A stretch of DNA of 35,899 bases, from positions 1-35,899 of the forward strand of contig JALZWO010000225.1 in assembly GCA_023300375.1 (NCBI GenBank), written 5' to 3'. The DNA comes from Granulosicoccus sp. (GTDB lineage: Bacteria > Pseudomonadota > Gammaproteobacteria > Granulosicoccales > Granulosicoccaceae). Under the pieces are notes generated by a model. It had not been told where the DNA came from and did not search any database. It saw only the letters and a program-made list of their open reading frames with translations. Each line of letters opens with the position of its first letter. The stretch's first letter is position 1. This document shows, one piece after another, positions 2,267 to 12,802 of the stretch. Both the position numbers and the translations under genes were made by a program.

Positions 2267-3208
2267 TTATAGCACGTTCCACTGAGTCTCTCTAACCAAT
2301 GCCTCAAGTGCAGCTGTACCTGCATGTGAATTACCGTTAGCATTCAAGCGAGGCGACCACACGGCAACCGCTGCAACATCAGGAACCACCACCACAATTC
2401 CGCCCCCCACCCCGCTTTTCCCAGGCAGCCCCACTCGAAAGGCAAAATCACCCGAAGCATCGTAATGACCACATAGCATCATCATAGCGTTAAGCCTACG
2501 CGCACGTTCCTCGCTAACGATTTTTTTGTGGGTAAGCGGATCAATGCCATTGTTAGCAAGAAAGAGCGCACTGCGAGCAAGCTGCTTGCAATTCATGGAA
2601 ATTGCACACTGCTGACAGTAGACGTCAAGCACATCATCAACAGGTCTTTCAAGGTTTTTAAAATTTTTCATAAAATAACAAAGGCTTGCGTTGCGAAACG
2701 CTGCATCACGCTCAGATCGCGCAACATCCTCATCAATTACGATTGAGTTGTCCTGTGCCAGATCACGTACGAATGAGAGCAAATCGGAAGTACAATCTTG
2801 AGTGCTTTGCTGATCTCCCAGCATCGCATCTGTTACGACCAATGCTCCCGCGTTGATAAACGGATTACGTGGAATCCCACATTCCATTTCAAGCTGTACT
2901 ATTGAATTAAAGGCATTGCCCGACGGCTCTCTTCCCACTCGGTCCCAGAGTTTTGTCCCACGCAAATTTAACGTAGAGGCGAGAGTAAATAGTTTTGAGA
3001 TACTCTGAATAGACAAAGCCTCCTTAGCTGCGCCAAAGCTTGCCGTCTCACCAGTAACGGTAATGATTGCAGCAGCGAATTTATCGCTGGGAACTTGCGC
3101 CAGTGCAGGAATGTAGTCAGCGACTTTACCTACCCCGATCTCGTGTTGAATTGATTGGCAGCTTCTGTCCAATTGTGCTTGCAATAAGGACATAAGTAGA
3201 AAGCCCAT
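2267..3208 (-). CDS. glsA: Glutaminase (L-glutamine to L-glutamate + ammonia)
   Basis: Serine-dependent glutaminase of the beta-lactamase-like fold, family PF04960. The catalytic Ser-x-x-Lys is seen as S69-I-S-K72 in LSIQSISKLF. Other family blocks are PRNPFINAGAL and a glycine-rich GLPGKSGVGGGI near residue 263, close to the C-terminus as expected. At 313 residues it matches the family (about 305-310). Two starts are possible: ATG at 3208, or a second ATG at 3193 giving MSLLQAQLDRS, which fits family starts better. A perfect TATAAT (3213-3218, minus strand) lies only a few bases before the first ATG. If it is the real -10 element, the 3193 start is favoured. I see no good -35 element. It probably supplies glutamate and ammonia in the cytoplasm. 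Confidence 0.93.
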   Translation of the reverse strand: MGFLLMSLLQAQLDRSCQSIQHEIGVGKVADYIPALAQVPSDKFAAAIITVTGETASFGAAKEALSIQSISKLFTLASTLNLRGTKLWDRVGREPSGNAFNSIVQLEMECGIPRNPFINAGALVVTDAMLGDQQSTQDCTSDLLSFVRDLAQDNSIVIDEDVARSERDAAFRNASLCYFMKNFKNLERPVDDVLDVYCQQCAISMNCKQLARSALFLANNGIDPLTHKKIVSEERARRLNAMMMLCGHYDASGDFAFRVGLPGKSGVGGGIVVVVPDVAAVAVWSPRLNANGNSHAGTAALEALVRETQWNVL

Positions 3209-3280
3209 TCAGATTATAGGGCTTCTAGCTTACTCTATTCTCTCCATGCACGATGCCAATAGAAAAGCAAATTTCTAAAC

Positions 3281-5086
3281 TCATTTACTTTGCTTCGGGT
3301 ACTCAGCCGACGCGTTCAACTGCCGTTGTTGAGCTTCCCATACATGACGAAGCTCAGGCGCACCAATCATGTTGTCCTCTACATCCCGGTAACTCAATGT
3401 ATCGATAATGGGATTACCCTACCATTTTTCTTCAAGCGCTTTTCGCCGCGCCAAGGGAGTGAATTCAGCAACGAACGCATTTACTTCACACAGCAACTTA
3501 TAGGATTCCGGTACAGCAGCAACTGCCACAACATAATAATAGGGCGAATCAGGAAGATTTTCACTGCATATTTCAATGTTTCCATGCCATGGACTCAGCG
3601 CGTTAGCGCAAGCCCAATGGTAAACAGGCAAGTCAACACCGAATGCATCGACCACGCCCTCCACCAGACAATCATATATTCGCGATTGATCAGAATACGC
3701 AATAAGGTTCTTCAGAAATATTTTCCTTCCGGGAAGATCTTTATTTGATTGCCAGCGAACCCCGATGCAGGCAAGAAGCTCAAATGCCCCAGGATCGTTA
3801 ATAAGCCCCAGTGTTTTTCCTGTAAATCAACAATTCCCTTAATTTGTGTATCACCTACACGGCGTGCAAGTACCCAATGTAGATAGGTATATATCTCAGA
3901 GTAGGTGCCACTATCGTAGTTAGCGCTCGGCGGCAACCCACTCAATACAATATCAGCCCGCGCCTCATTGGCCCGAGGACCAATGTAGAGAAGCTGCGTC
4001 AAAGTGTCCCACGGCACCTCAACAAACTTACAACGCACACCGAGAAATTCCGCCAGTGCAGTTGCATATTCAACATCATGTCCAATAAATTCTATCGAAC
4101 CCTCTCTTCGAAATGATAGACCAATGAGATTAGGCTCTATTGCAATACGAATGACTCCACGCGCTTTTATGTCTTGGTATCTATCGTAAGATGGTGAGTG
4201 TTTAATACTATCAAGTTTCAATAAGGCCACCAGCTGCTTTGCAGTGCTGGCAAACGATGAACCTTGAAATGCTTCTGATGCAATTTTCACGCGGTCACGA
4301 CACCACACTATTTTTTGATAGACAATTTCAACCGCCACTGTGTTTTCCTGTGTGACTTCAGAAATGACACCGTGATGCTCAGACACTTCACCCAATGACG
4401 CACTAACATTTTAAATTGCGCTTTTTATTTCATCAATCGCTTTGCCAATCTCTACTTCAGCATTGTTGTGAGGCTGCTGAAAAGCGCCCACAGATTTGAT
4501 CATCAGTGCATTTACACCGGTTAGATCAAACATGTCAGCAACTTGCGAGTGATGCCTTATGGCATCTTTTTCAAGTCGCTTAACCTCATCCACCACAACC
4601 GAAAATCCAGCTTCTGACTTGCCTGCCTTGCTCGCTTCAATTTTTGCATTCATCGCTAGCATAGACAGCTGCTGACCAGTACGACTCAGCTCTAACATAA
4701 CGCCTTTTACGCCCTCCTGGCGTTCAGTCAGTGTATCCCACGCGAGCTGCAAGTCATTTTAGATGAGCTGTAAGTTTGAACCTGTCGCTTCATTGAGTTT
4801 TAATCGGATATCGGCGGTTGCTACCAAACATGTTTGACAATCATCTGCCATTTTCGTCATGTTGGTATGCAAGGCCAACTCACGTGACTCGACCTCTAAC
4901 TTGGTTTTTTTGATGGTTTCCCAACACAGCCATTGCGGAGCTTTGTAGGCAATGATAATGCGATAACGTTGTCTGCAAAAACTTCAAAATCTCATCAATA
5001 CCCTGTTCGTTTACAGGCTCGTCCTCCGGGTTGAGCACACTCTGCAAGTTATGTGGATTTTGATTTGAATCGGTGGCCACACACAC
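3281..5086 (-). pseudogene. Decayed fusion of MCP signalling domain and family-3 solute-binding domain
   Basis: Reading through several lesions restores one long protein. The N-terminal half has a recognisable chemoreceptor signalling tip: LSMLAMNAKIEASKAG, then GFSVVVDEVKRLEKDA. The C-terminal half is a family-3 solute-binding domain: IRIAIEPNLIGLSFR, FIGHDVEYATALAEFLGV, ADIVLSGLPPS, then KTLGLINDPGAFE and VEGVVDAFGVDLPVY after frame correction. Lesions seen are a frameshift at or just upstream of the T7 run 4905-4911; in-frame TAA at 4759-4761; in-frame TAA at 4411-4413; a one-base frameshift at the T5 run 3814-3818; and in-frame TAG at 3419-3421. The reading then runs to a TGA at 3281-3283. 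The 5' end is uncertain: a GTG at 5086 is the first start after a TAG at about 5113. No membrane segment is clear, so the intact form may have been cytoplasmic. Confidence 0.85.
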
Positions 5087-5572
5087 CCGTAGAAATCTAG
5101 CAACAGAGCATTGCTAGTGAATATCCAAAATCATGCCACGGGCTAGAACTACCATGCGTAACATGTTGCACCTTGGTGGAACCTCGTGTAGTCCAACCCA
5201 TAGAGCCATCTGCTTCTCAGCGTTCAGGTAATTAAGGATTTACACTACTTAACGGTATCGCACTCGGTGTAGATGCTAGCCTAAAAGCCATTTTGAGCAG
5301 AGCTGGATATATCAAATCGTTTCACGATTACTCTTTGTGTTGACGAGAATGGCACTTACTGATGCTCTTTATCCCCACGTAAGTGGGAATCTAATCACTT
5401 ATAAACCTTGGATTTTGGCCTTCCCGAGAATGACGTTCGCACTATTTTCGCTTAACTAAATACTAGTAGTGGTTACGATACTATTTAGATGGACAGGCGA
5501 TTTTCGGGTGTTGCTATTGAAACTTCTCCGAGCACGATAAGCCTTGTTCGATCAATCTACCGACAAACCACA
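5087..5572. other. Intergenic region between the gene ruin and a lipoprotein gene
   Basis: Nearly 490 bases without a supportable gene. It may contain more of the ruined gene's 5' end (5087-5160 stays partly readable on the minus strand past one TAG). It also holds a REP-like element at 5368-5436 and presumably the promoter of the plus-strand lipoprotein. No convincing -35/-10 pair stands out. Confidence 0.5.
5368..5436. repeat. REP-like imperfect inverted repeat (copy 1)
   Basis: The left part, TTATCCCCACGTAAGTGGGAA, is itself a small hairpin (CCCAC/GTGGG). The right part reads TTCCCGAGAATGACG, the reverse complement of CGTCATTCTCGGGAA, which also occurs at about 18663-18677. The same GTCAT(T/C)CCC...GGGAAT logic is found at 18721-18787. 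Elements of this kind are dispersed in many proteobacterial genomes, usually between genes. Confidence 0.6.
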
Positions 5573-6577
5573 ATGTACCCACTTTCATTCTCTAACTGCC
5601 GCAATAGCGCCTTCGTGACCATATTGTTATTTGCCACCGGCTGTAGCAACGATTCAGGTACCGTGGTTAGCGCAATGTCGCCCAATTCCAATAGCTTACC
5701 TTCAGCTATAGAGCAAGCTTTAGCAACACAACAACAGACTCCATTCAGCAATACATTTGACGATGTTCGACTTACGGAAGTCAGTGGGATGCAACGTTCA
5801 TTTTTTATCGACGGTGTTTACTATGTGCACAATGATAGCGATAGCGCCCCGTTGATTTATGCCTCTGATGCCGCTGGAAATATATTGGGTTCACTGTTTA
5901 TTGCCAATGCTGAATCTACTGACTGGGAAGCTCTGGCAGGCGCTCGGCAAGATGGTAGGAACCGACTGATCATTGCTGACATCGGCAACAATGCCGGACA
6001 ACGACAAGACCTTCAGCTTTGGGTTATTGATGAGCCAACACTCGACGAACTTGAACCTGGGTTTGAGCTTGAACTGGTAGCCGACAACATCGCACTCAAT
6101 TATTCAGATGGGCTTTCGTACGATGCCGAAGGCTTGTTTGTAGATGACGACAATGACACCCTTGTAGTTCTCACCAAGAACTCTCAAGACACCTCTAGCC
6201 AATCTATTTGGCAAGGATCTCTGTCTAACGGGCTAACAGACGGCAGCTTATCTCTTCAATTCAGCGGCTTGGTTAACCTTTCTTCAGAGGCTTTCGCCAA
6301 TGCTATTACAGACGTGGATATTCATCCCAATAGGCGTGAAATAGCCGTGCTAACGTACGGATCATTTCCTGGTGTAGGCCGTATTCATTTATGGACGTCC
6401 ACAGACAGTGAAGGCACGAGTGATGCATTGCTAAGACCTGCGAATGAAATACTAAGTTTGTCGATTTTTGGCTCTAATCTCCAAGCAGAAAGTATTAGCT
6501 ACAGTGCAGACGGAAGCAATCTATTGGTGGGAGCAGAAGGCCTGTCACGCAGCACGCTTACAGTTGTGGCACGTTAG
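5573..6577 (+). CDS. Putative secreted lipoprotein, beta-propeller-like
   Basis: A 334-residue protein from the ATG at 5573. I prefer this to the in-frame ATG at 5489 because it puts a short basic/hydrophobic signal (NSAFVTILLFATGC) at the N-terminus, with the lipidated Cys at residue 24. The -3 Ala is a slightly weak lipobox. The mature protein has no Cys-rich or membrane segment and shows repeated acidic/aromatic blades. The block STDWEALAG...IADIGNNAGQR...LQLWVIDEP resembles secreted proteins with a DWE...DIGDN...R...PEP signature, often predicted as beta-propellers or phytase/esterase-like. That assignment is from memory and tentative. No catalytic residues can be named. Its stop codon overlaps the stop codon of the convergent hydrolase gene by bases 6574-6577. 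Confidence 0.6.
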   Translation: MYPLSFSNCRNSAFVTILLFATGCSNDSGTVVSAMSPNSNSLPSAIEQALATQQQTPFSNTFDDVRLTEVSGMQRSFFIDGVYYVHNDSDSAPLIYASDAAGNILGSLFIANAESTDWEALAGARQDGRNRLIIADIGNNAGQRQDLQLWVIDEPTLDELEPGFELELVADNIALNYSDGLSYDAEGLFVDDDNDTLVVLTKNSQDTSSQSIWQGSLSNGLTDGSLSLQFSGLVNLSSEAFANAITDVDIHPNRREIAVLTYGSFPGVGRIHLWTSTDSEGTSDALLRPANEILSLSIFGSNLQAESISYSADGSNLLVGAEGLSRSTLTVVAR

Positions 6578-7764
6578 CGTATAAAAATTGCGTCGAACGC
6601 GTCCAACACCCCAGCAAAATCAGGGTTGTAGGTTGTTCTGGCAACTGGCACCTCGTCAGGTGAAGGTGTATGTTGTGCGCCCAGCCAATGTTCACCTGTG
6701 TAAAACAAACAACGACTAAATACCGGCCACTCGCTGCCATTGCAAACACGAACATGCCCATTGACGCCAAACAAGGAATTTGTTGGCGCTACCAACACGC
6801 TTTGGTGTGCCTGATTTAATATGCGTAAATCGGGATAAGCGCTGCTGCGATATTCCACATGCTCTTGAGTTGATGTATTTTGATCATTGCTATAGATAAT
6901 CAATTTTTTCTCAGCCGTAAAGCCTTTATCAAAACTCTCAAGCATATAGTTAACATCAAGCACCGAGTCGTTCGAACTTGCTACCACCAAGGTAGGTATA
7001 TTTAATGGTTTTCTTGGCCATCGTCTCTTTAAAGCCCGCGTTGTTTTGTAATATTGTGCCCCTGAATTGATAGGAATGGAATTGTATTTAACTGGATTAT
7101 CCTCGCGGATCATGCCACCGAACATCCAAGGCTTGAACTTTGAGTACACACCAGCCCAACGTAGCAAGTGATTTATATTACTGCGATAGGCGGGTGAAAA
7201 AAGCAGCAATCCGTCGATAGGATTGCTTTTTTTTTCCGCTGCTAGCAACGTTGCAATAACTCCGCCTAAGGAAAATCCACCTAAATAAAATGGCGTGTCA
7301 GAATCGCGATATAAACTCACTTGTTCTCTTGCAGCGCTAAGCCATCGCTTGTAAGAAATCGACAACATAGCTTCTGGCGTACTGCCATGACCAGGCAACA
7401 GAATGGCTCTAACGTCGAAGCCGCGATCAGCTAAGGCGTTGGCCATATCGCGCCAAATGAAAGGTGAATCGTTTAAACCGTGTATCAAAAGAAACTTACC
7501 TTGGTAAGGCACATTTGAGGCAGCTTTTCGATCGAACGGTAAATTCAGCTCAGCCTCGGCTTCACTTCTCTGGCTCATTTTATGAGCTAGGAGGTGCACT
7601 TTAACTTCGGCTATATGCTGGTCAAATTCAAGCTGAGGCCTGGGGAACAAAGAATCACTATGAGTGCATGCTTGAAGCGCTAAACAAAGCAAAACAATCA
7701 CAACTCGCGCAGGCCGCAATGTAGCGCGTGAGAGGTAGTTTGTTATGCCAGAATTCGGTTGCAC
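6574..7764 (-). CDS. Alpha/beta-hydrolase lipoprotein
   Basis: Predicted membrane-anchored serine hydrolase of 396 residues. The signal sequence ends in a lipobox, LALQAC, with Cys33. The nucleophile elbow is GFSLGG with Ser165. The oxyanion region is IHGLNDSPFIW (about 94-104). A likely acid is in VVASSNDSVLDVNY, and a late His may complete the triad. It resembles serine-aminopeptidase/monoacylglycerol-lipase type (Hydrolase_4) folds, so an esterase or lipase role is plausible; the substrate is unknown. The start is a GTG at 7764 with no clear ribosome-binding site; no ATG precedes the lipobox. It lies 19 bases after the last iol gene on the same strand and may be read through from it, though nothing in it suggests inositol metabolism. 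Its stop overlaps that of the plus-strand gene. Confidence 0.75.
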   Translation of the reverse strand: MQPNSGITNYLSRATLRPARVVIVLLCLALQACTHSDSLFPRPQLEFDQHIAEVKVHLLAHKMSQRSEAEAELNLPFDRKAASNVPYQGKFLLIHGLNDSPFIWRDMANALADRGFDVRAILLPGHGSTPEAMLSISYKRWLSAAREQVSLYRDSDTPFYLGGFSLGGVIATLLAAEKKSNPIDGLLLFSPAYRSNINHLLRWAGVYSKFKPWMFGGMIREDNPVKYNSIPINSGAQYYKTTRALKRRWPRKPLNIPTLVVASSNDSVLDVNYMLESFDKGFTAEKKLIIYSNDQNTSTQEHVEYRSSAYPDLRILNQAHQSVLVAPTNSLFGVNGHVRVCNGSEWPVFSRCLFYTGEHWLGAQHTPSPDEVPVARTTYNPDFAGVLDAFDAIFIR

Positions 7765-7783
7765 AATAGAGTATCAGTTTTAG

Positions 7784-9706
7784 TTAGCGAGACTTCCAGA
7801 CGCTGATCACCTGCTTGTAGTTTTCAATAACCTGCTGCTGTAAACCCGCGTTATTGATTTTTCCTGATAGCCAGCTTTTTGCAGGTTCACCAAAAATACT
7901 ACGCCCTACGGCAAAACCTCGTACACGTTCAATGCCGGCGCATGCCTTAAACCCTGCACGAAGCTCCTCGATAGGCGCATCAAGACCGAGAATAACAATG
8001 CCTCGGCAATACTTATCATGCTCATCAATCAGTGCCTCTATTTTTTTCAAATTTGTCGCCGCCAAACCCGGTAGCTTCCACCAATCAGGGTACACCTCAA
8101 GGTCATAGAAACGCTGCACTGAGCGAACAACTGCATCATCATGATCAAGGCATCTCTGGCCATCCACTTTGGGCGGAATAATTTCTAGAAGCAGCTCATG
8201 GCCGCTTACCTGACAAGCGTGCCAAAGATTCAGTACCTGTTTTTCTTGCGCATCACGCAAGCTTTGCTCGTCGTCCGGATGATAAAAAATTAAACACTTC
8301 ACAATGTGCTCAGCTGGCCAGGCGATAAGCTGCGAACCGATGCTATTGCCGCGCTCTAGTTCAAGCGGCCTTGAACCAGCCACCTCAACAGGTCGTCCAA
8401 TCCACAACCCCATGCCTGTGGCGACATTCAGCGTATCTTGTGCAAAGGTGTCGTCGGCAAGAATGCCAGCATGGCCTTGTAAACCCTGCTCATTAACAAC
8501 AGATAGTGTGGCCTCAAGCAACAGCATTTTTAGTTCGGGAATACGTGTGTTAGAAACGCCTGCCTCTATTGCCATATCAATTAATTGCGACCGATGATCA
8601 AAGGCATGGATATACAGCTCAGGCCAAGGCGCACGGCGGTACCGAGCCGTCACTCTGTGCAGGTGATTAAGCCATGGGTGCTGATCAGGGCGCTTGATGT
8701 CGACACTGTTTTCCAGATAATAATCCAATTCTGGCACCGTTGGCATGGCTGGTGTGCAGCCATGGCGCGACACGACTAGCGCGCCACAGGCATTGGCATA
8801 GGTCAATGCTTGTTCGAAGCCTTCATCGTTCAACCACCCACGCATGAAACCGGCTGCAAAGGCATCTCCAGCCCCCAACACGTTCAGCACTTCAACGGTC
8901 ACGCCTTTCACTGTTATCCCCTCATCCAGTGAATCCGGTATGTCAGTATCAAAGACAGTGGCACCAAAAGGGCCTCGCTTTAAAACGATAACCGCTGTTG
9001 AAACCTTCCTGATATTAGCCAATGCTACCAGCGTATCAGTGCTACCACCGGCAATGTGCACCTCTTCTTCGGTGCCAATGACTAAATCGAATAGCGGCAG
9101 AATAGTTTGCAGATGCGCAGTAACGCTGTCTGAACTGATAAACCTCGTCTCTCCATCTCCACGACTCGTTAAACCCCAAAGTACCGGGCGGTAATCAATA
9201 TCCAGTGCCGTTTTCACACCCCGCTCACGGGCTATTGTTAATGCGGCAGTGGACGATGCTTTAACCGACCCTGTGGAAAAATGAGTACCGGTAATGGCCA
9301 AACATTTAGCGCTAGCAATGTAATCGGCATCAAGATCATCCACACTAATAGCCATATCTGCGCAGTTCTCACGCACAAACACCAGAGGAAAGGTATCGTT
9401 GTCCTTAATGCTCAACAATACCATCGCCGTGGGGCGTGTCGGATCAGTGATAACGGCTTGCGTGTCTACGCCTTCGCGTTCCAGCTGCTCACGTAAAAAA
9501 CGTCCTGCATGTTCATCGCCCACGCGAGTGATGAGGCCAGTTCGTAGCCCTTGTCTTGCAGCGCACGCTGCAATGTTGGCAGAAGAGCCACCCAGGTATT
9601 TTGAAAAGCTAGTGACATCCTCTAGCCGGGCGCCAATTTGCTGTCCGTAAAGATCGACACCGCAACGGCCTAATGTGATCAGATCTAGCGTTGGCTTGTC
9701 TTTCAT
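7784..9706 (-). CDS. iolC: Fused 5-dehydro-2-deoxygluconokinase / DUF2090 aldolase-like protein
   Basis: A two-domain protein of 640 residues. The N-terminal PfkB-type kinase (about 1-320) shows GRCGVDLYGQQIG, the GGSSANIAACAARQG block and the catalytic NVLGAGDAFAAGF with the anion-hole GAGD. It is predicted to phosphorylate 5-dehydro-2-deoxy-D-gluconate. The C-terminal about 310 residues match DUF2090, a TIM-barrel-like domain often annotated as a 5-dehydro-2-deoxyphosphogluconate aldolase (for example LFYHPDDEQSL, KLPGL, GIVILGLDAPIEEL). I chose ATG 9706 (MKDKPTLDLITLGR) over an upstream in-frame start at 9775: the longer form would overlap iolG and adds non-family sequence. A GAGA-type ribosome site precedes it. 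It is the last clear gene of the operon. A second, stand-alone iolC lies at 13649-14623. Confidence 0.9.
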   Translation of the reverse strand: MKDKPTLDLITLGRCGVDLYGQQIGARLEDVTSFSKYLGGSSANIAACAARQGLRTGLITRVGDEHAGRFLREQLEREGVDTQAVITDPTRPTAMVLLSIKDNDTFPLVFVRENCADMAISVDDLDADYIASAKCLAITGTHFSTGSVKASSTAALTIARERGVKTALDIDYRPVLWGLTSRGDGETRFISSDSVTAHLQTILPLFDLVIGTEEEVHIAGGSTDTLVALANIRKVSTAVIVLKRGPFGATVFDTDIPDSLDEGITVKGVTVEVLNVLGAGDAFAAGFMRGWLNDEGFEQALTYANACGALVVSRHGCTPAMPTVPELDYYLENSVDIKRPDQHPWLNHLHRVTARYRRAPWPELYIHAFDHRSQLIDMAIEAGVSNTRIPELKMLLLEATLSVVNEQGLQGHAGILADDTFAQDTLNVATGMGLWIGRPVEVAGSRPLELERGNSIGSQLIAWPAEHIVKCLIFYHPDDEQSLRDAQEKQVLNLWHACQVSGHELLLEIIPPKVDGQRCLDHDDAVVRSVQRFYDLEVYPDWWKLPGLAATNLKKIEALIDEHDKYCRGIVILGLDAPIEELRAGFKACAGIERVRGFAVGRSIFGEPAKSWLSGKINNAGLQQQVIENYKQVISVWKSR

Positions 9707-9722
9707 CAAATTTATTCTCAGC

Positions 9723-10715
9723 TTATAAGGTGACAAAAACCGCTTGCCCGCTATGTGCTGACTCATAGGCAGCATCTGCTAACAACAATGATGCAAGCCC
9801 ATCAGGGCCGGTAGGTACCTGCACAACCTCACCCACCATCCACGACACAAAACAATTTAGCTCATGCGCGTAAGCCTCCGTGTACCGTGTCATAAAGAAA
9901 TCATGCAACGGACCTGTGGTGTAGCCGTGGCCGTTGGCTTGCGTAAGCAAGTTAGGTTTCGGATTATCAATTGATGCCATGCCCTCACTGCCATGTACTT
10001 CAGCCCTTTGGTCATAGCCATAACTGGCTCTGCGTGAATTAGCGATAACACATTGTTTACCTGTGGCCGTGGTGAGCGTGGCTGTTGCAGTGTCAAAATC
10101 TATTCCAGCAAGCGACTTATCTATCAGGCACGAACCAGTGGCTGTGACCGATACTGGCTCCTCACCCAACAGAAAACGCGCCATGTCAAAGTCATGAATC
10201 ATCATGTCGCGGAAGATGCCACCACTGCGCTTGATATATTCCAACGGTGGTGGTGCTGGATCACGAGAGGTGATGATCACCTGCTCCACCTCACCTACTT
10301 GCCCTTGATCAATTGCCGCTTTGAGCGACATAAACTGAGCATCGAACCGACGGTTAAAACCAATCATCAATCGACCATTATTCTCTTCAACAACTTTCAG
10401 GCACGCCCGCACCCGTGCTGAATCAAGGTCAATTGGCTTTTCGCAAAACACCGCTTTCCCAGCTTTGACACACTGTTCGATGAGATTGGCATGGGTATCG
10501 GTGGGCGTTGCAATGATGACACCGTGTATGGCGTCCGAATTAATCCAATGTTCGGCCGTATTGATCTCACAGCCATGCTGTGATGCTAAAGCAGTAGCGG
10601 CAGCTTCAACCTCATCAGTGACGCCTACAAGCGTAACATCAGCATTCATACTCACTGCATAGGCATGTACTTGACCAATACGCCCTGCACCTAATAAAGC
10701 AATTCCATACGTCAT
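9723..10715 (-). CDS. iolG: Inositol 2-dehydrogenase
   Basis: NAD-dependent dehydrogenase of 330 residues, predicted to oxidise myo-inositol to scyllo-inosose (2-keto-myo-inositol), the first step of the pathway. The Rossmann motif is LLGAGRIGQVHAYAV at the N-terminus. The catalytic Lys lies in FCEKPIDLD (about residues 92-100), and the Asp/His pair in GGIFRDMMIHDFDMARFLLGE (about 165-185), a strong match to IolG rather than to other Gfo/Idh/MocA proteins. It sits 3 bases after the preceding dehydrogenase gene and 16 bases before the fused iolC, so it is clearly within one transcript. Of the three Gfo/Idh/MocA proteins here it is the best candidate for the main myo-inositol enzyme. Confidence 0.88.
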   Translation of the reverse strand: MTYGIALLGAGRIGQVHAYAVSMNADVTLVGVTDEVEAAATALASQHGCEINTAEHWINSDAIHGVIIATPTDTHANLIEQCVKAGKAVFCEKPIDLDSARVRACLKVVEENNGRLMIGFNRRFDAQFMSLKAAIDQGQVGEVEQVIITSRDPAPPPLEYIKRSGGIFRDMMIHDFDMARFLLGEEPVSVTATGSCLIDKSLAGIDFDTATATLTTATGKQCVIANSRRASYGYDQRAEVHGSEGMASIDNPKPNLLTQANGHGYTTGPLHDFFMTRYTEAYAHELNCFVSWMVGEVVQVPTGPDGLASLLLADAAYESAHSGQAVFVTL

Positions 10716-10718
10716 ATC

Positions 10719-11840
10719 TTAGCTCTCCAGTGGACCAGTAGATACCCAACTACGCGTCTCACACGATTCGTGTACAGCATCAATCAACTCCTGCACGCGC
10801 AGCCCTTCAGAAAAATCAGGGTACACAGCCTCAGCAGTGTCAATAGCCTTTAAGAAATCTTTTTGTTCAATGATGATTTGATCCTGATAACCTGTGCCGT
10901 GTCCGGGCCCTAAGCAAAAGTGCACGTAATCAGGGTGTGCGGGGCCTGTCAGAATTTTTCGAAAACCACGCGTACTCTCGGGGCCTTCCGCTTTGTAAAG
11001 GTACAAGGCGTTCTGGTCTTCTTGGTCAAAACGAATACTGCCTTTGTCACCGTGTAGCTCATAGGCGTAACCCATTTTTCGGCCATGCGCCACCCTGCTG
11101 AAAAACAAGTGCCCCATCGCACCATTGGCAAACCGACACATCATCTGAGCCTGATCATCGTTGGTCACAGCCTCAACACCATTGGCACCTTCGCGTTGTC
11201 CACATGTGATTTGCTGATCTCCAATGAGTTCAACAATATCGCCACCTAATGCTAAAGCCGCATTAACAATATGAGGTGCCAGATCACCTAGAGTTCCATT
11301 AGCCTTACCGCGAGTTCGCCAATTGGCAGGTTCACTATGATCGGCTAGAAAATCTTCACTGTGCTCAGCTTTAATATAATGCAGCTTGCCTATCTCGCCA
11401 TCAGCAACAAGTTGGCGAGCAAACTGTGTGGCAGGTGTTCGTACATAGTTAAAGCCAATCATGTTGGCCACACCTGAATCCGTCGCAGCTTGAGCCATAA
11501 TTCTGGCCTCAGCGGTGGTTTCAGCAAGAGGCTTTTCACAAAATACAGGTTTGCCTGCAGCAAAGGCTGCCAGCGCTATGTCGTGATGCGTTTGTTGTGG
11601 GGAGGCAATAATAATGGCTTCCACCTTAGGGTCGGCCACCAACTCTTGCCAGCTATCTGTTCCCCGTAAAAAGCCCAGCTCAGCTGCAGCCCGCTCGGCA
11701 CCCGCCTTGGTGGTGGTAGCAATGAGCTCACAACGCGGTTTAAGTGTGGTGTTGAATACAGCACCTACAGCATGCAGGGCCACGGCATGCGCCTTACCCA
11801 TATAACCTGACCCAACAAGCCCTATTCCAATTTCACGCAT
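10719..11840 (-). CDS. Gfo/Idh/MocA-family dehydrogenase (inositol-isomer candidate)
   Basis: A 373-residue NAD(P)-dependent oxidoreductase. The N-terminal Rossmann motif is GLVGSGYMGKAHAVAL. EKP is present in PVFCEKPLAETTAEAR (about residue 97), and the sugar-binding half contains GTLGDLAPHIVNAALALGG with the Asp-x-x-x-His pair. It is longer than IolG and has a C-terminal extension with GPGHGTGYQDQIIIEQKDFL, as in proteins acting on disaccharides or inositol isomers. In this operon it may handle scyllo- or D-chiro-inositol or a keto-inositol glycoside; that is inferred from position only. It follows iolJ across a 131-bp gap that carries a 13-bp tandem repeat, and precedes iolG by 3 bases. 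Confidence 0.82.
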   Translation of the reverse strand: MREIGIGLVGSGYMGKAHAVALHAVGAVFNTTLKPRCELIATTTKAGAERAAAELGFLRGTDSWQELVADPKVEAIIIASPQQTHHDIALAAFAAGKPVFCEKPLAETTAEARIMAQAATDSGVANMIGFNYVRTPATQFARQLVADGEIGKLHYIKAEHSEDFLADHSEPANWRTRGKANGTLGDLAPHIVNAALALGGDIVELIGDQQITCGQREGANGVEAVTNDDQAQMMCRFANGAMGHLFFSRVAHGRKMGYAYELHGDKGSIRFDQEDQNALYLYKAEGPESTRGFRKILTGPAHPDYVHFCLGPGHGTGYQDQIIIEQKDFLKAIDTAEAVYPDFSEGLRVQELIDAVHESCETRSWVSTGPLES

Positions 11841-11865
11841 TAGTATTATTCACCTAGAACTGTCT

Positions 11866-11943
11866 GATTAACTTCAGAGATTAACTTCAGAGATTAACTT
11901 CAGGGATTGATTTCAAGTCTTGCTTTCGGTGCTTGCTTTCAAA
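11866..11943. repeat. 13-bp tandem repeat, about six units, progressively diverged
   Basis: Units are GATTAACTTCAGA (11866-11878), the same again (11879-11891), GATTAACTTCAGG (11892-11904), GATTGATTTCAAG (11905-11917), TCTTGCTTTCGGT (11918-11930) and GCTTGCTTTCAAA (11931-11943). The first three are nearly identical; the later ones drift steadily. A further loose echo, GTAACTTCAGCTGG, overlaps the iolJ stop. The array lies between iolJ and the next gene of the operon and is not translated in any called gene. It could change in copy number by slippage. Confidence 0.85.
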
Positions 11944-11971
11944 GGTCGGCCTCAAGAGGCTGCAAGTAACT

Positions 11972-12802
11972 TCAGCTGGCTTTTATAGCATTCATAACAC
12001 GACGCGCAGCATTCATCACAGGCTCGTGTGTATCTTTAAGAATAGATACCCGATCAAAACGGGCAGCATCTTTATTCACAGACTCACGTAGTGCCTTGCC
12101 AAAGGCCATTCGCAGTTCCGTGCCAATGTTGTATTTACAAATAGCCGTAGTACGGGCTAAATGCACACGCTGTTCAATGGTCACGCCCGAGCCGCCATGA
12201 ATCACCAAAGGCACATCGCACTGTAATTGAATCTGCCGTATGCGCGCCTCATCAAGCTGAGACACACTATCGCTTTGCAGATGCACATTTCCCACTGAAA
12301 TTGCCATGGCATCAACGGCTGTTTCACGGGCAAATTTTGCAGCTTCTTCTGGCACCGTGCCATGCGATTCTTCGCCTTCGGCATAACCGACAAAACCAAT
12401 TTCGCCCTCACACGACACACCCGCTGCGTGCGCCACGGCTACAATAGCTGCAGTTTCATCAATGTTCTGCTGAAGCGGTTTTCGCGAACCGTCATACATC
12501 ACCGACGTAAAGCCGCAATCAATCGCTTGCCGACACTCTTCCATGCTATAGCCATGATCAAGATGCGCAACCACCGGCACATCGGCGTTGTCGGCTAAGT
12601 GCCGGAACATAGCAGCCAGAACCGTCAGAGGCGTGTGTTCACGACAACCTGGGCCGGCCTGCAGAATCACCGGGCAACCTTCAGCTTCGGCGGCAGCTAC
12701 AAAAGCGCGGGTATCTTCCCAGCCTAGTGTGACCAGCCCTGCCACGGCATAACCGTGCTGCAAGGCAGGCTGCAGAACATCACTTAGCGGTACCAGTGCC
12801 AT
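11972..12802 (-). CDS. iolJ: Class II aldolase, 6-phospho-5-dehydro-2-deoxy-D-gluconate aldolase
   Basis: Zinc-dependent class II aldolase of 276 residues. It is predicted to split 2-deoxy-5-keto-D-gluconate 6-phosphate into dihydroxyacetone phosphate and malonic semialdehyde. Metal ligands are seen in VVAHLDHGYSMEECRQAI (about 75-92) and VIHGGSGVTIEQR (about 205-217), with a Glu in SCEGEIGFVGYAEGEE and the phosphate-binding YNIGTELR. A fructose-bisphosphate aldolase role cannot be excluded by motifs alone, but its place between iolB and iolG makes the inositol role much more likely. Its ATG overlaps the iolB stop (TAATG), implying translational coupling. A second possible aldolase is the DUF2090 half of the fused iolC gene. 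Confidence 0.9.
   Translation of the reverse strand: MALVPLSDVLQPALQHGYAVAGLVTLGWEDTRAFVAAAEAEGCPVILQAGPGCREHTPLTVLAAMFRHLADNADVPVVAHLDHGYSMEECRQAIDCGFTSVMYDGSRKPLQQNIDETAAIVAVAHAAGVSCEGEIGFVGYAEGEESHGTVPEEAAKFARETAVDAMAISVGNVHLQSDSVSQLDEARIRQIQLQCDVPLVIHGGSGVTIEQRVHLARTTAICKYNIGTELRMAFGKALRESVNKDAARFDRVSILKDTHEPVMNAARRVMNAIKAS

Follow-up and report, generated by a model that had tools for sequence, protein, structure and literature searches.

The gene studied here lies in a 35,899-nucleotide stretch of a Granulosicoccus genome (the window) and is probably a recently dead member of a chemoreceptor family that is cytosolic and widely scattered, and in which a C-terminal flytrap domain would bind a small internal metabolite. 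Judged from its sequence, it appears to be a pseudogene in the window genome, and the receptors of its family probably sense a small intracellular molecule. The window genome (G000; 4,576,633 bases in 247 contigs) is of the same genus as G007 and G008, the two sister genomes used for comparison throughout.

Five lesions interrupt a single gene

By six-frame translation and alignment, we resolved the minus strand between 5086 and 3281 into one gene with two frameshifts and three stop codons (Table 1). It possibly starts with GTG at 5086, ends with a stop at 3283-3281, and is readable in two minus-strand frames as three pieces, 5086-~4911, ~4905-~3821 and 3820 to the terminal stop. The nearest relative, the copy in G008, was identical at 1829 of 2073 aligned bases over a stretch including the flanks; compared with it, the window carries one extra base in the A run at 4905-4911 and lacks one base near 3820. 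One gene is thus broken by five lesions and chance is excluded. The preliminary description of this DNA had counted the same two frameshifts and three stops, and six-frame reading, alignment and a codon check bore out both the number and the coordinates.

Table 1. Features of the broken gene in the window and family ORFs found in other genomes.
Feature	Genome	Position	Strand	Evidence or length
Pseudogene, MCP and C-terminal family-3 solute-binding domain	Window	3281..5086	-	Frames, G008 alignment, codons, intact G007
First frameshift, A run where the reading frame changes	Window	4905..4911	-	Alignment to G008, codons
Second frameshift	Window	3820..3821	-	Alignment to G008
In-frame stop codon 1	Window	4759..4761	-	Six-frame reading, G008 alignment, codons
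In-frame stop codon 2	Window	4411..4413	-	Six-frame reading, G008 alignment, codons
In-frame stop codon 3	Window	3419..3421	-	Six-frame reading, G008 alignment, codons
MCP signalling domain (PF00015 match), one in-frame stop inside	Window	4321..4734	-	49.8 bits, profile 27-161 of 172
Family-3 solute-binding domain (PF00497)	Window	3320..4160	-	Pfam match 3988-4152 and homology of 3320-3826
Intact ORF	Rhodospirillales MAG			626 aa
5′-open ORF, 5′ end off contig	Methylophaga			At least 581 aa
Intact ORF	Magnetospirillum aberrantis			603 aa
Intact ORF	Kiloniellaceae MAG			638 aa

The middle piece passed the Pfam cut-offs for both domains (PF00015, 48.1 bits, cut-off 34.6; PF00497, 29.3 bits, cut-off 26.4), and the separate 5′ and 3′ pieces gave no Pfam match at E 0.001. 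The 3′ piece (3320-3826) nevertheless matched residues 422-590 of an intact relative with 63% identity (E 3.6e-71), the PF00497 domain being split by the frameshift near 3820 and carrying one in-frame stop. The tip of the MCP signalling domain reads MLAMNAKIEASKAGKSEAGFSVV. The assignment of an MCP signalling domain followed by a family-3 solute-binding domain (SBP) therefore held, both cut-offs being passed and intact relatives having the same order.

Intact relatives and spread of the family

In the sister genome G007, a MAG that is 68% complete, the gene is a single open frame of 595 codons with 48% identity to the window piece, and its protein scored 60.2 bits for PF00015 and 47.4 bits for PF00497, again with the MCP domain first. 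The copy in G008 is 88% identical to that of the window and carries two in-frame stops and no frameshift. Since the intact homologues are single ORFs with the MCP domain first and the SBP domain last, two separate genes wrongly joined were rejected as an explanation. An MCP gene followed by an SBP gene in Salinivibrio, considered as a split pair, was only weakly similar (22.7% identity, E 2e-6) and, judged by that similarity, is no family member.

Two peptide patterns alone, run against 84,980 species genomes, returned six loci, those of G007 and G008 in Granulosicoccus and the others in a Rhodospirillales MAG, Methylophaga, Magnetospirillum aberrantis and a Kiloniellaceae MAG. The named members are alpha- and gammaproteobacteria. 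By profile search, 3 of the 48 genomes examined from the window's own family had the receptor, as did at least 7 of 397 genomes of a phylum sample, the window genome counted, a lower bound with at most three candidates scored per genome. It was found in 13 of 29 genomes of the genus of G631, 11 of these with two matches, and in 7 of 48 of the genus of G551. An HMM recovered 41 distinct family ORFs in the loci examined; among them are a fragment from the broken G008 copy and an ORF (L104) that seems cut short, and with these two set aside we took 39 as intact in the alignments. Both Pfam domains were detected in all 16 members scanned (E 0.001). Members have about 560-640 residues, and one ORF with an upstream start has 700. 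A plasmid-borne family was rejected: two intact members used at E 1e-30 gave no match among 72,556 plasmid records, and the G007 protein used at E 1e-5 hit 362 records, in all of which the matched places covered less than 80% of the query. On these searches the family appears patchy and spread over several bacterial groups.

Topology and predicted fold

The Kyte-Doolittle maximum over 19 residues did not exceed 1.44 in 40 of the 41 ORFs, hydropathy alone being a crude test; the exception, L074, reached 1.68 at residue 82. No convincing span was thus seen in the members by hydropathy, in keeping with the earlier proposal of a soluble sensor lacking an obvious membrane anchor. Nor did we see an exported binding protein starting with its own signal, the SBP domain beginning at about residue 300 behind the MCP hairpin with no hydrophobic span.

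The full-length AF2 model of the G007 protein has a helix at 29-154, a turn at 155 beside the conserved tip, helices at 156-186 and 190-275, and the SBP domain from about residue 300. With a mean pLDDT of 63.9, this model deserves moderate confidence, lobe 2 being its weak part. Modelled alone, the SBP domain reached a pLDDT of 81.4 and a pTM of 0.80, and its best PDB match was glutamate-bound 5eyf (Z 23.1, rmsd 3.1 over 235 residues), the family-3 binding proteins among the matches listed (best 50) having Z 20.7-23.1. The domain is two-lobed by predicted fold, with PF00497 above its cut-off, and its nearest solved proteins by sequence are AncQR and ancestral cyclohexadienyl-dehydratase precursors. 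Sequences and predicted models together show the living family as a putative long coiled-coil MCP hairpin followed by a two-lobed Venus flytrap, with no predicted membrane span.

Separate decay in two sister genomes

We then compared the window and G008 copies codon by codon. Their dN/dS was 0.231, against 0.074-0.120 for six neighbour genes, with 0.395 in the MCP part and 0.130 in the SBP part. With G007 as outgroup, 49 nonsynonymous and 36 synonymous changes fell on the window branch and 17 and 21 on the G008 branch, 66 changes being unassigned to either. Conservation across the other 38 intact members defined 104 columns; at these, departures numbered 20 in the window (one of them the frameshift codon), 12 in G008 and 13 in the intact G007. 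Because all 12 of the G008 departures are common to the window, G008 has none of its own and the window has eight, namely the frameshift codon and seven substitutions. The two copies have no lesion in common, and neither G008 stop lies at a place broken in the window.

The three stops arising by substitution, the seven private substitutions and the raised dN/dS speak for real decay, although any one lesion could be a sequencing error, the two frameshifts most of all, as both lie in short homopolymer runs. Both signs expected of a pseudogene were found, more than one frame-breaking lesion (five) and selection relaxed by dN/dS. Together, the changes, the departures and the unshared lesions argue for selection during most of the time and for separate losses, the loss appearing a little earlier in the window lineage and very recent in G008. 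Both breaks may have been preceded by one common silent step, for instance loss of expression. The window and G008 copies share neighbours and thus one locus; the G007 copy lies at another, which fits gain or movement within the genus.

Receptor tip and chemotaxis system

The QTN motif is typical of chemoreceptor tips without strictly defining them, and in E. coli Tsr, F373 and its neighbours make trimer and kinase contacts. None of the 39 intact members aligned carries QTN in the tip, which reads GKGIKLLALNA or similar; the motif occurs elsewhere than the tip in some family proteins. In the window genome, by comparison, 13 of 17 PF00015 matches have QTN before the turn, the other four being the studied gene, which has none, and three that the tip pattern used did not match. 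Conservation in the family is strong across the tip's descending half (NAxIEA..AGE..GFAVVA), with the arginine of EAARAGE replaced by Q or H in four G575-type members and in L074. Because the family tip is non-canonical, coupling to an ordinary CheA/CheW array is uncertain.

The rest of the chemotaxis system is still present in the window genome: chemotaxis genes elsewhere in it, a point raised in the preliminary description, amounted to 17 MCP-domain matches including the studied gene (16 above the cut-off) and 11 CheW-domain matches. Some of the latter fall in ORFs of 703, 922 and 1489 aa, lengths typical of CheA-type kinases. CheW-domain matches likewise numbered 11 in G008, and 3 in G007. 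Flagellar and chemotaxis genes are reported for kelp-associated Granulosicoccus in the available text of PMC9238374.

A second damaged chemoreceptor was noticed in the window genome (L058, G000:C55:44000-53000, 3153-5944). Its plus-strand ORF at 4466-5548 resembles, by eye, the front part of a membrane receptor; the signalling-domain match at 5717-5944 lies in a frame with one TGA and one TAA, and a 167-aa SBP_bac_3 ORF stands on the opposite strand about 1 kb away. Chemoreceptor decay may be more general in the window lineage.

The binding site lacks the carboxylate arginine at its aligned place

By alignments rather than coordinates, the carboxylate arginine of HisJ and AncQR falls at or next to residue 390 in G007 numbering; in HisJ we take the arginine binding the alpha-carboxylate to be R77. 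No R or K was found at 390 or 391 in any of the 41 rows aligned. A basic residue stands slightly further on, at 392-393, in 26 of them (K392 in 24, R392 in one and R393 in one), and the acid residue D486 is kept in all 41. As the clamp arginine is missing at the aligned position, a plain alpha-amino acid is unlikely to be bound in quite the standard way, and the carboxylate clamp may be shifted rather than gone. Of the soluble sensor of an internal amino-acid-like ligand proposed earlier, the soluble part therefore stands, whereas the amino-acid-like part is weakened by the lack of the arginine at its aligned place. SBP Pfam profiles are described as recognising sensor domains of cytosolic signalling proteins as well (PMC9602780, in part).

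In G732 (L078), a member of the genus of G631, two intact receptor copies are adjacent (7762-9549 and 9754-11562), and their binding domains are not alike (VDQPIFHWAA in one, for instance, and GDHPVFYWAS in the other); with this difference they may bind different ligands.

Gene neighbourhoods

The receptor gene's nearest downstream neighbour in the window codes for a glutaminase (NF002133, 444.6 bits, cut-off 368). The Magnetospirillum aberrantis receptor comes after a type III glutamine synthetase (TIGR03105, 635.7, cut-off 469.6) and glutamate-synthase-like genes, and that of G551 after the N-acetylglucosamine genes nagB, nagK-like and nagA. In G575, the receptor belongs to one same-strand run with tmm (trimethylamine monooxygenase; NF058570, 834.9 bits, cut-off 675), tdm (TMAO demethylase; NF053776, 1161.9 bits, cut-off 1100), an Amt-like transporter (198.1 bits, below its cut-off of 343.3) and two other MCP genes. 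The three MCP genes of this run (L082, 6387-8090, 8621-10411 and 12401-13384), one of them SBP-fused, make a candidate dedicated set for methylated-amine taxis. These contexts share nitrogen metabolism loosely only.

Ten reference proteins compared with 26 neighbourhood loci, a set in which some loci are short and others duplicate one place, put each marker set in one lineage. All-against-all clustering of 19 neighbourhoods gave, beyond the family itself and opposite-strand shadow frames, cross-lineage repeats of large common superfamilies only. ATP-binding proteins lay near the receptor in four lineages, with a Walker A motif in all four and an ABC signature in three; by eye they are of different kinds, and none is directly beside the receptor. 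Two lineages (G436 and the genus of G551) had, by eye, a glutathione-transferase-like protein near the receptor, two lineages a short-chain-dehydrogenase-like protein, and further recurring pairs were confined to the genus of G551. Since the cross-lineage repeats are large common superfamilies, the ligand is unreadable from gene context, and context as a pointer to it was rejected, no recurring neighbour designating one. Co-occurrence of TMAO demethylase in two groups of 48 genomes each does not track the receptor and is uninformative: tdm was found in all 3 receptor genomes of the window's family (the G007 match below the curated cut-off) against 36 of the 45 others, and in the genus of G551 in 1 of 7 receptor genomes against 4 of 41 others, all below the cut-off.

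Several further observations concern these loci. In two genomes of the genus of G551 (L113, 7759-8559; L115, 11535-12494), a G575-type receptor has immediately upstream, on the same strand, a gene that by eye is glutathione-transferase-like. The window at 7784-12802 carries sugar kinase, dehydrogenase and aldolase genes resembling, by eye, inositol catabolism, a run with low dN/dS against G008 (0.074-0.120). Between them and the receptor, at 5489-7764, two genes that by eye encode a predicted secreted protein and an alpha/beta hydrolase have a dS of about 1.3 against G008, while the four genes beyond this pair have 0.11-0.29; the high value suggests a recombined or replaced stretch. The G008 contig ends just past the broken receptor (L027, 3120-3262) in sequence unlike the window's downstream region, so that a rearrangement or repeat may border the gene there.

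Proposed mode of action

In an MCP hairpin both ends lie at the base, away from the kinase-binding tip, and for this reason a C-terminal sensor could take the place of the usual N-terminal sensor, membrane segment and HAMP domain. We propose that a small cytosolic nitrogen-containing metabolite would close the flytrap, that closure of the lobes would pull or rotate the descending helix through the short helical linker, and that the change would travel to the tip and alter CheA activity. The cell would in this way be steered by its own internal metabolic state. In the window genome and G008, the receptor would have been under selection until recently and then lost separately, the remaining chemotaxis system being retained.

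Alternative explanations

Two ligand classes were weighed. The receptor could sense methylated amines, or the products first formed from them in the cytosol (for example trimethylamine, dimethylamine, methylamine or a gamma-glutamyl amide), in a site that kept the acid holding the amino group and lost the carboxylate arginine. The G575 run with tmm, tdm, the Amt-like transporter and two MCP genes points this way, as do the member from Methylophaga, presumably a methylotroph, and the alignment, with D486 in 41 of 41 rows and no R or K at 390-391. Published work on amine-sensing dCache domains, which arose from amino-acid sensors, describes the same logic: PacA has Q165, and R126, which binds the carboxylate in PctA, is not conserved (PMC10104139, as far as its available text goes). 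Methylamine genes stand beside the receptor at only one of the 26 loci, however, short and duplicate ones included, and tdm does not follow the receptor in the window's family or in the genus of G551. The clamp may also have shifted to the basic residue two or three places on in 26 of 41 rows, and SBP_bac_3 members are predicted to bind amino acids only (PMC9602780, in the portion available). We regard a methylated-amine ligand as unlikely on this balance. A report on nitrogen supply, with glutamine, glutamate or a near relative as ligand, seems to us similarly improbable. Such a reading would fit the downstream glutaminase in the window and the type III glutamine synthetase and glutamate-synthase-like genes in Magnetospirillum aberrantis, and it agrees with AncQR, an arginine/glutamine binder, as the closest SBP sequence and with a glutamate-bound top fold match. 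Both matches say little here, since amino-acid binders make up most of the SBP_bac_3 structures listed. Against it, the glutaminase and the glutamine synthetase each occur in one of 26 neighbourhoods (the G008 contig stops short of the glutaminase position), and the carboxylate clamp is missing at its usual place.

The other two alternatives concern the output and the state of the gene. A divergent tip might no longer join canonical trimers and CheA, the receptor having another partner or acting as a competitor within arrays. The contrast between no tip QTN among 39 intact members and 13 of 17 MCP matches in the window genome suggests this, together with the Q or H replacing the EAARAGE arginine in the four G575-type members and L074; yet strong conservation of the descending half, together with PF00015 scores above the cut-off where taken, is what continued selection for kinase binding would produce, so that a role outside the ordinary array looks quite doubtful. 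Finally, the stops and frameshifts might be assembly or read errors, or the stops might be read through, and the gene would then be no pseudogene. Both frameshifts do lie in short homopolymer runs. Three substitution stops, seven private substitutions at conserved columns, the raised dN/dS and two different stops in the same gene of G008 nonetheless make this highly improbable.

The preferred reading, a dead gene of a cytosolic receptor family with a C-terminal flytrap, has a further-reaching version that we put forward tentatively, doubting it rather more than we believe it: an undescribed class in which a nutrient-binding flytrap of the exported type moved into the cell behind a QTN-less MCP, with an internal nitrogenous metabolite, perhaps a methylated amine, as ligand, with a kinase coupling of its own, and with separate, ongoing losses in the window lineage and its sister. 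Flytrap solute-binding domains are mainly known as sensors of the outside. If the proposal is true, bacteria could steer by an internal pool using a dedicated binder, flytrap closure and kinase control could be studied together, membrane-free, in a soluble protein, and the dead copies would indicate that such receptors are lost at the pace of species.

Comparison with known systems

Cytosolic receptors with a C-terminal sensor are known, and McpK is the nearest in print among the matches listed. Among those matches, the PMC library gave no account of the soluble family or of a cytosolic MCP with a C-terminal SBP_bac_3 domain; in PMC2536512 both domain names appear as separate list items only.

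Family-3 binding proteins such as AncQR, HisJ and the cystine and arginine binders resemble the family by Pfam scores above cut-off and by Z 20.7-23.1 (best 50); unlike theirs, the family's domain is fused behind an MCP in a cytosolic-type ORF and has no carboxylate arginine at the aligned place. BvgS-type sensor kinases similarly carry a flytrap of the same Pfam in a signalling protein (3mpk, Z 21.7), but, in the accessible text of PMC5829827, their flytraps are periplasmic, stand before the membrane span and have a histidine kinase output. MtpA of Methylobacterium aquaticum 22A is a cytosolic MCP presumably reading a metabolic product, formaldehyde; it differs, as described in passages of PMC10613068, in consisting of a signalling domain only, with no SBP domain. 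For McpK of Myxococcus xanthus, a protein of 1048 residues, a published table lists an MCP domain at 246-463 and also a 'bacterial extracellular solute-binding proteins domain', which makes it a possible parallel to the family; it is nearly twice as long, and the value of 3 in the last table column is read as membrane spans (PMC3945109, in part).

The preliminary description had called the domain order unusual. It is unusual, and real in intact ORFs, but C-terminal sensors on cytosolic receptors have precedents in TlpD of Helicobacter pylori and McpA of Salmonella, cytoplasmic MCPs with a C-terminal CZB sensor (PMC13001251, in the text available). No CZB match was obtained in any of 16 family members scanned (E 0.001). 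TlpD and McpA are thus like the family in being cytosolic, with a sensor C-terminal to the MCP signalling domain, and differ from it in size, with 433 and 352 residues against about 560-640, and in the sensor itself, a small zinc-binding CZB domain in place of the two-lobed solute-binding domain.
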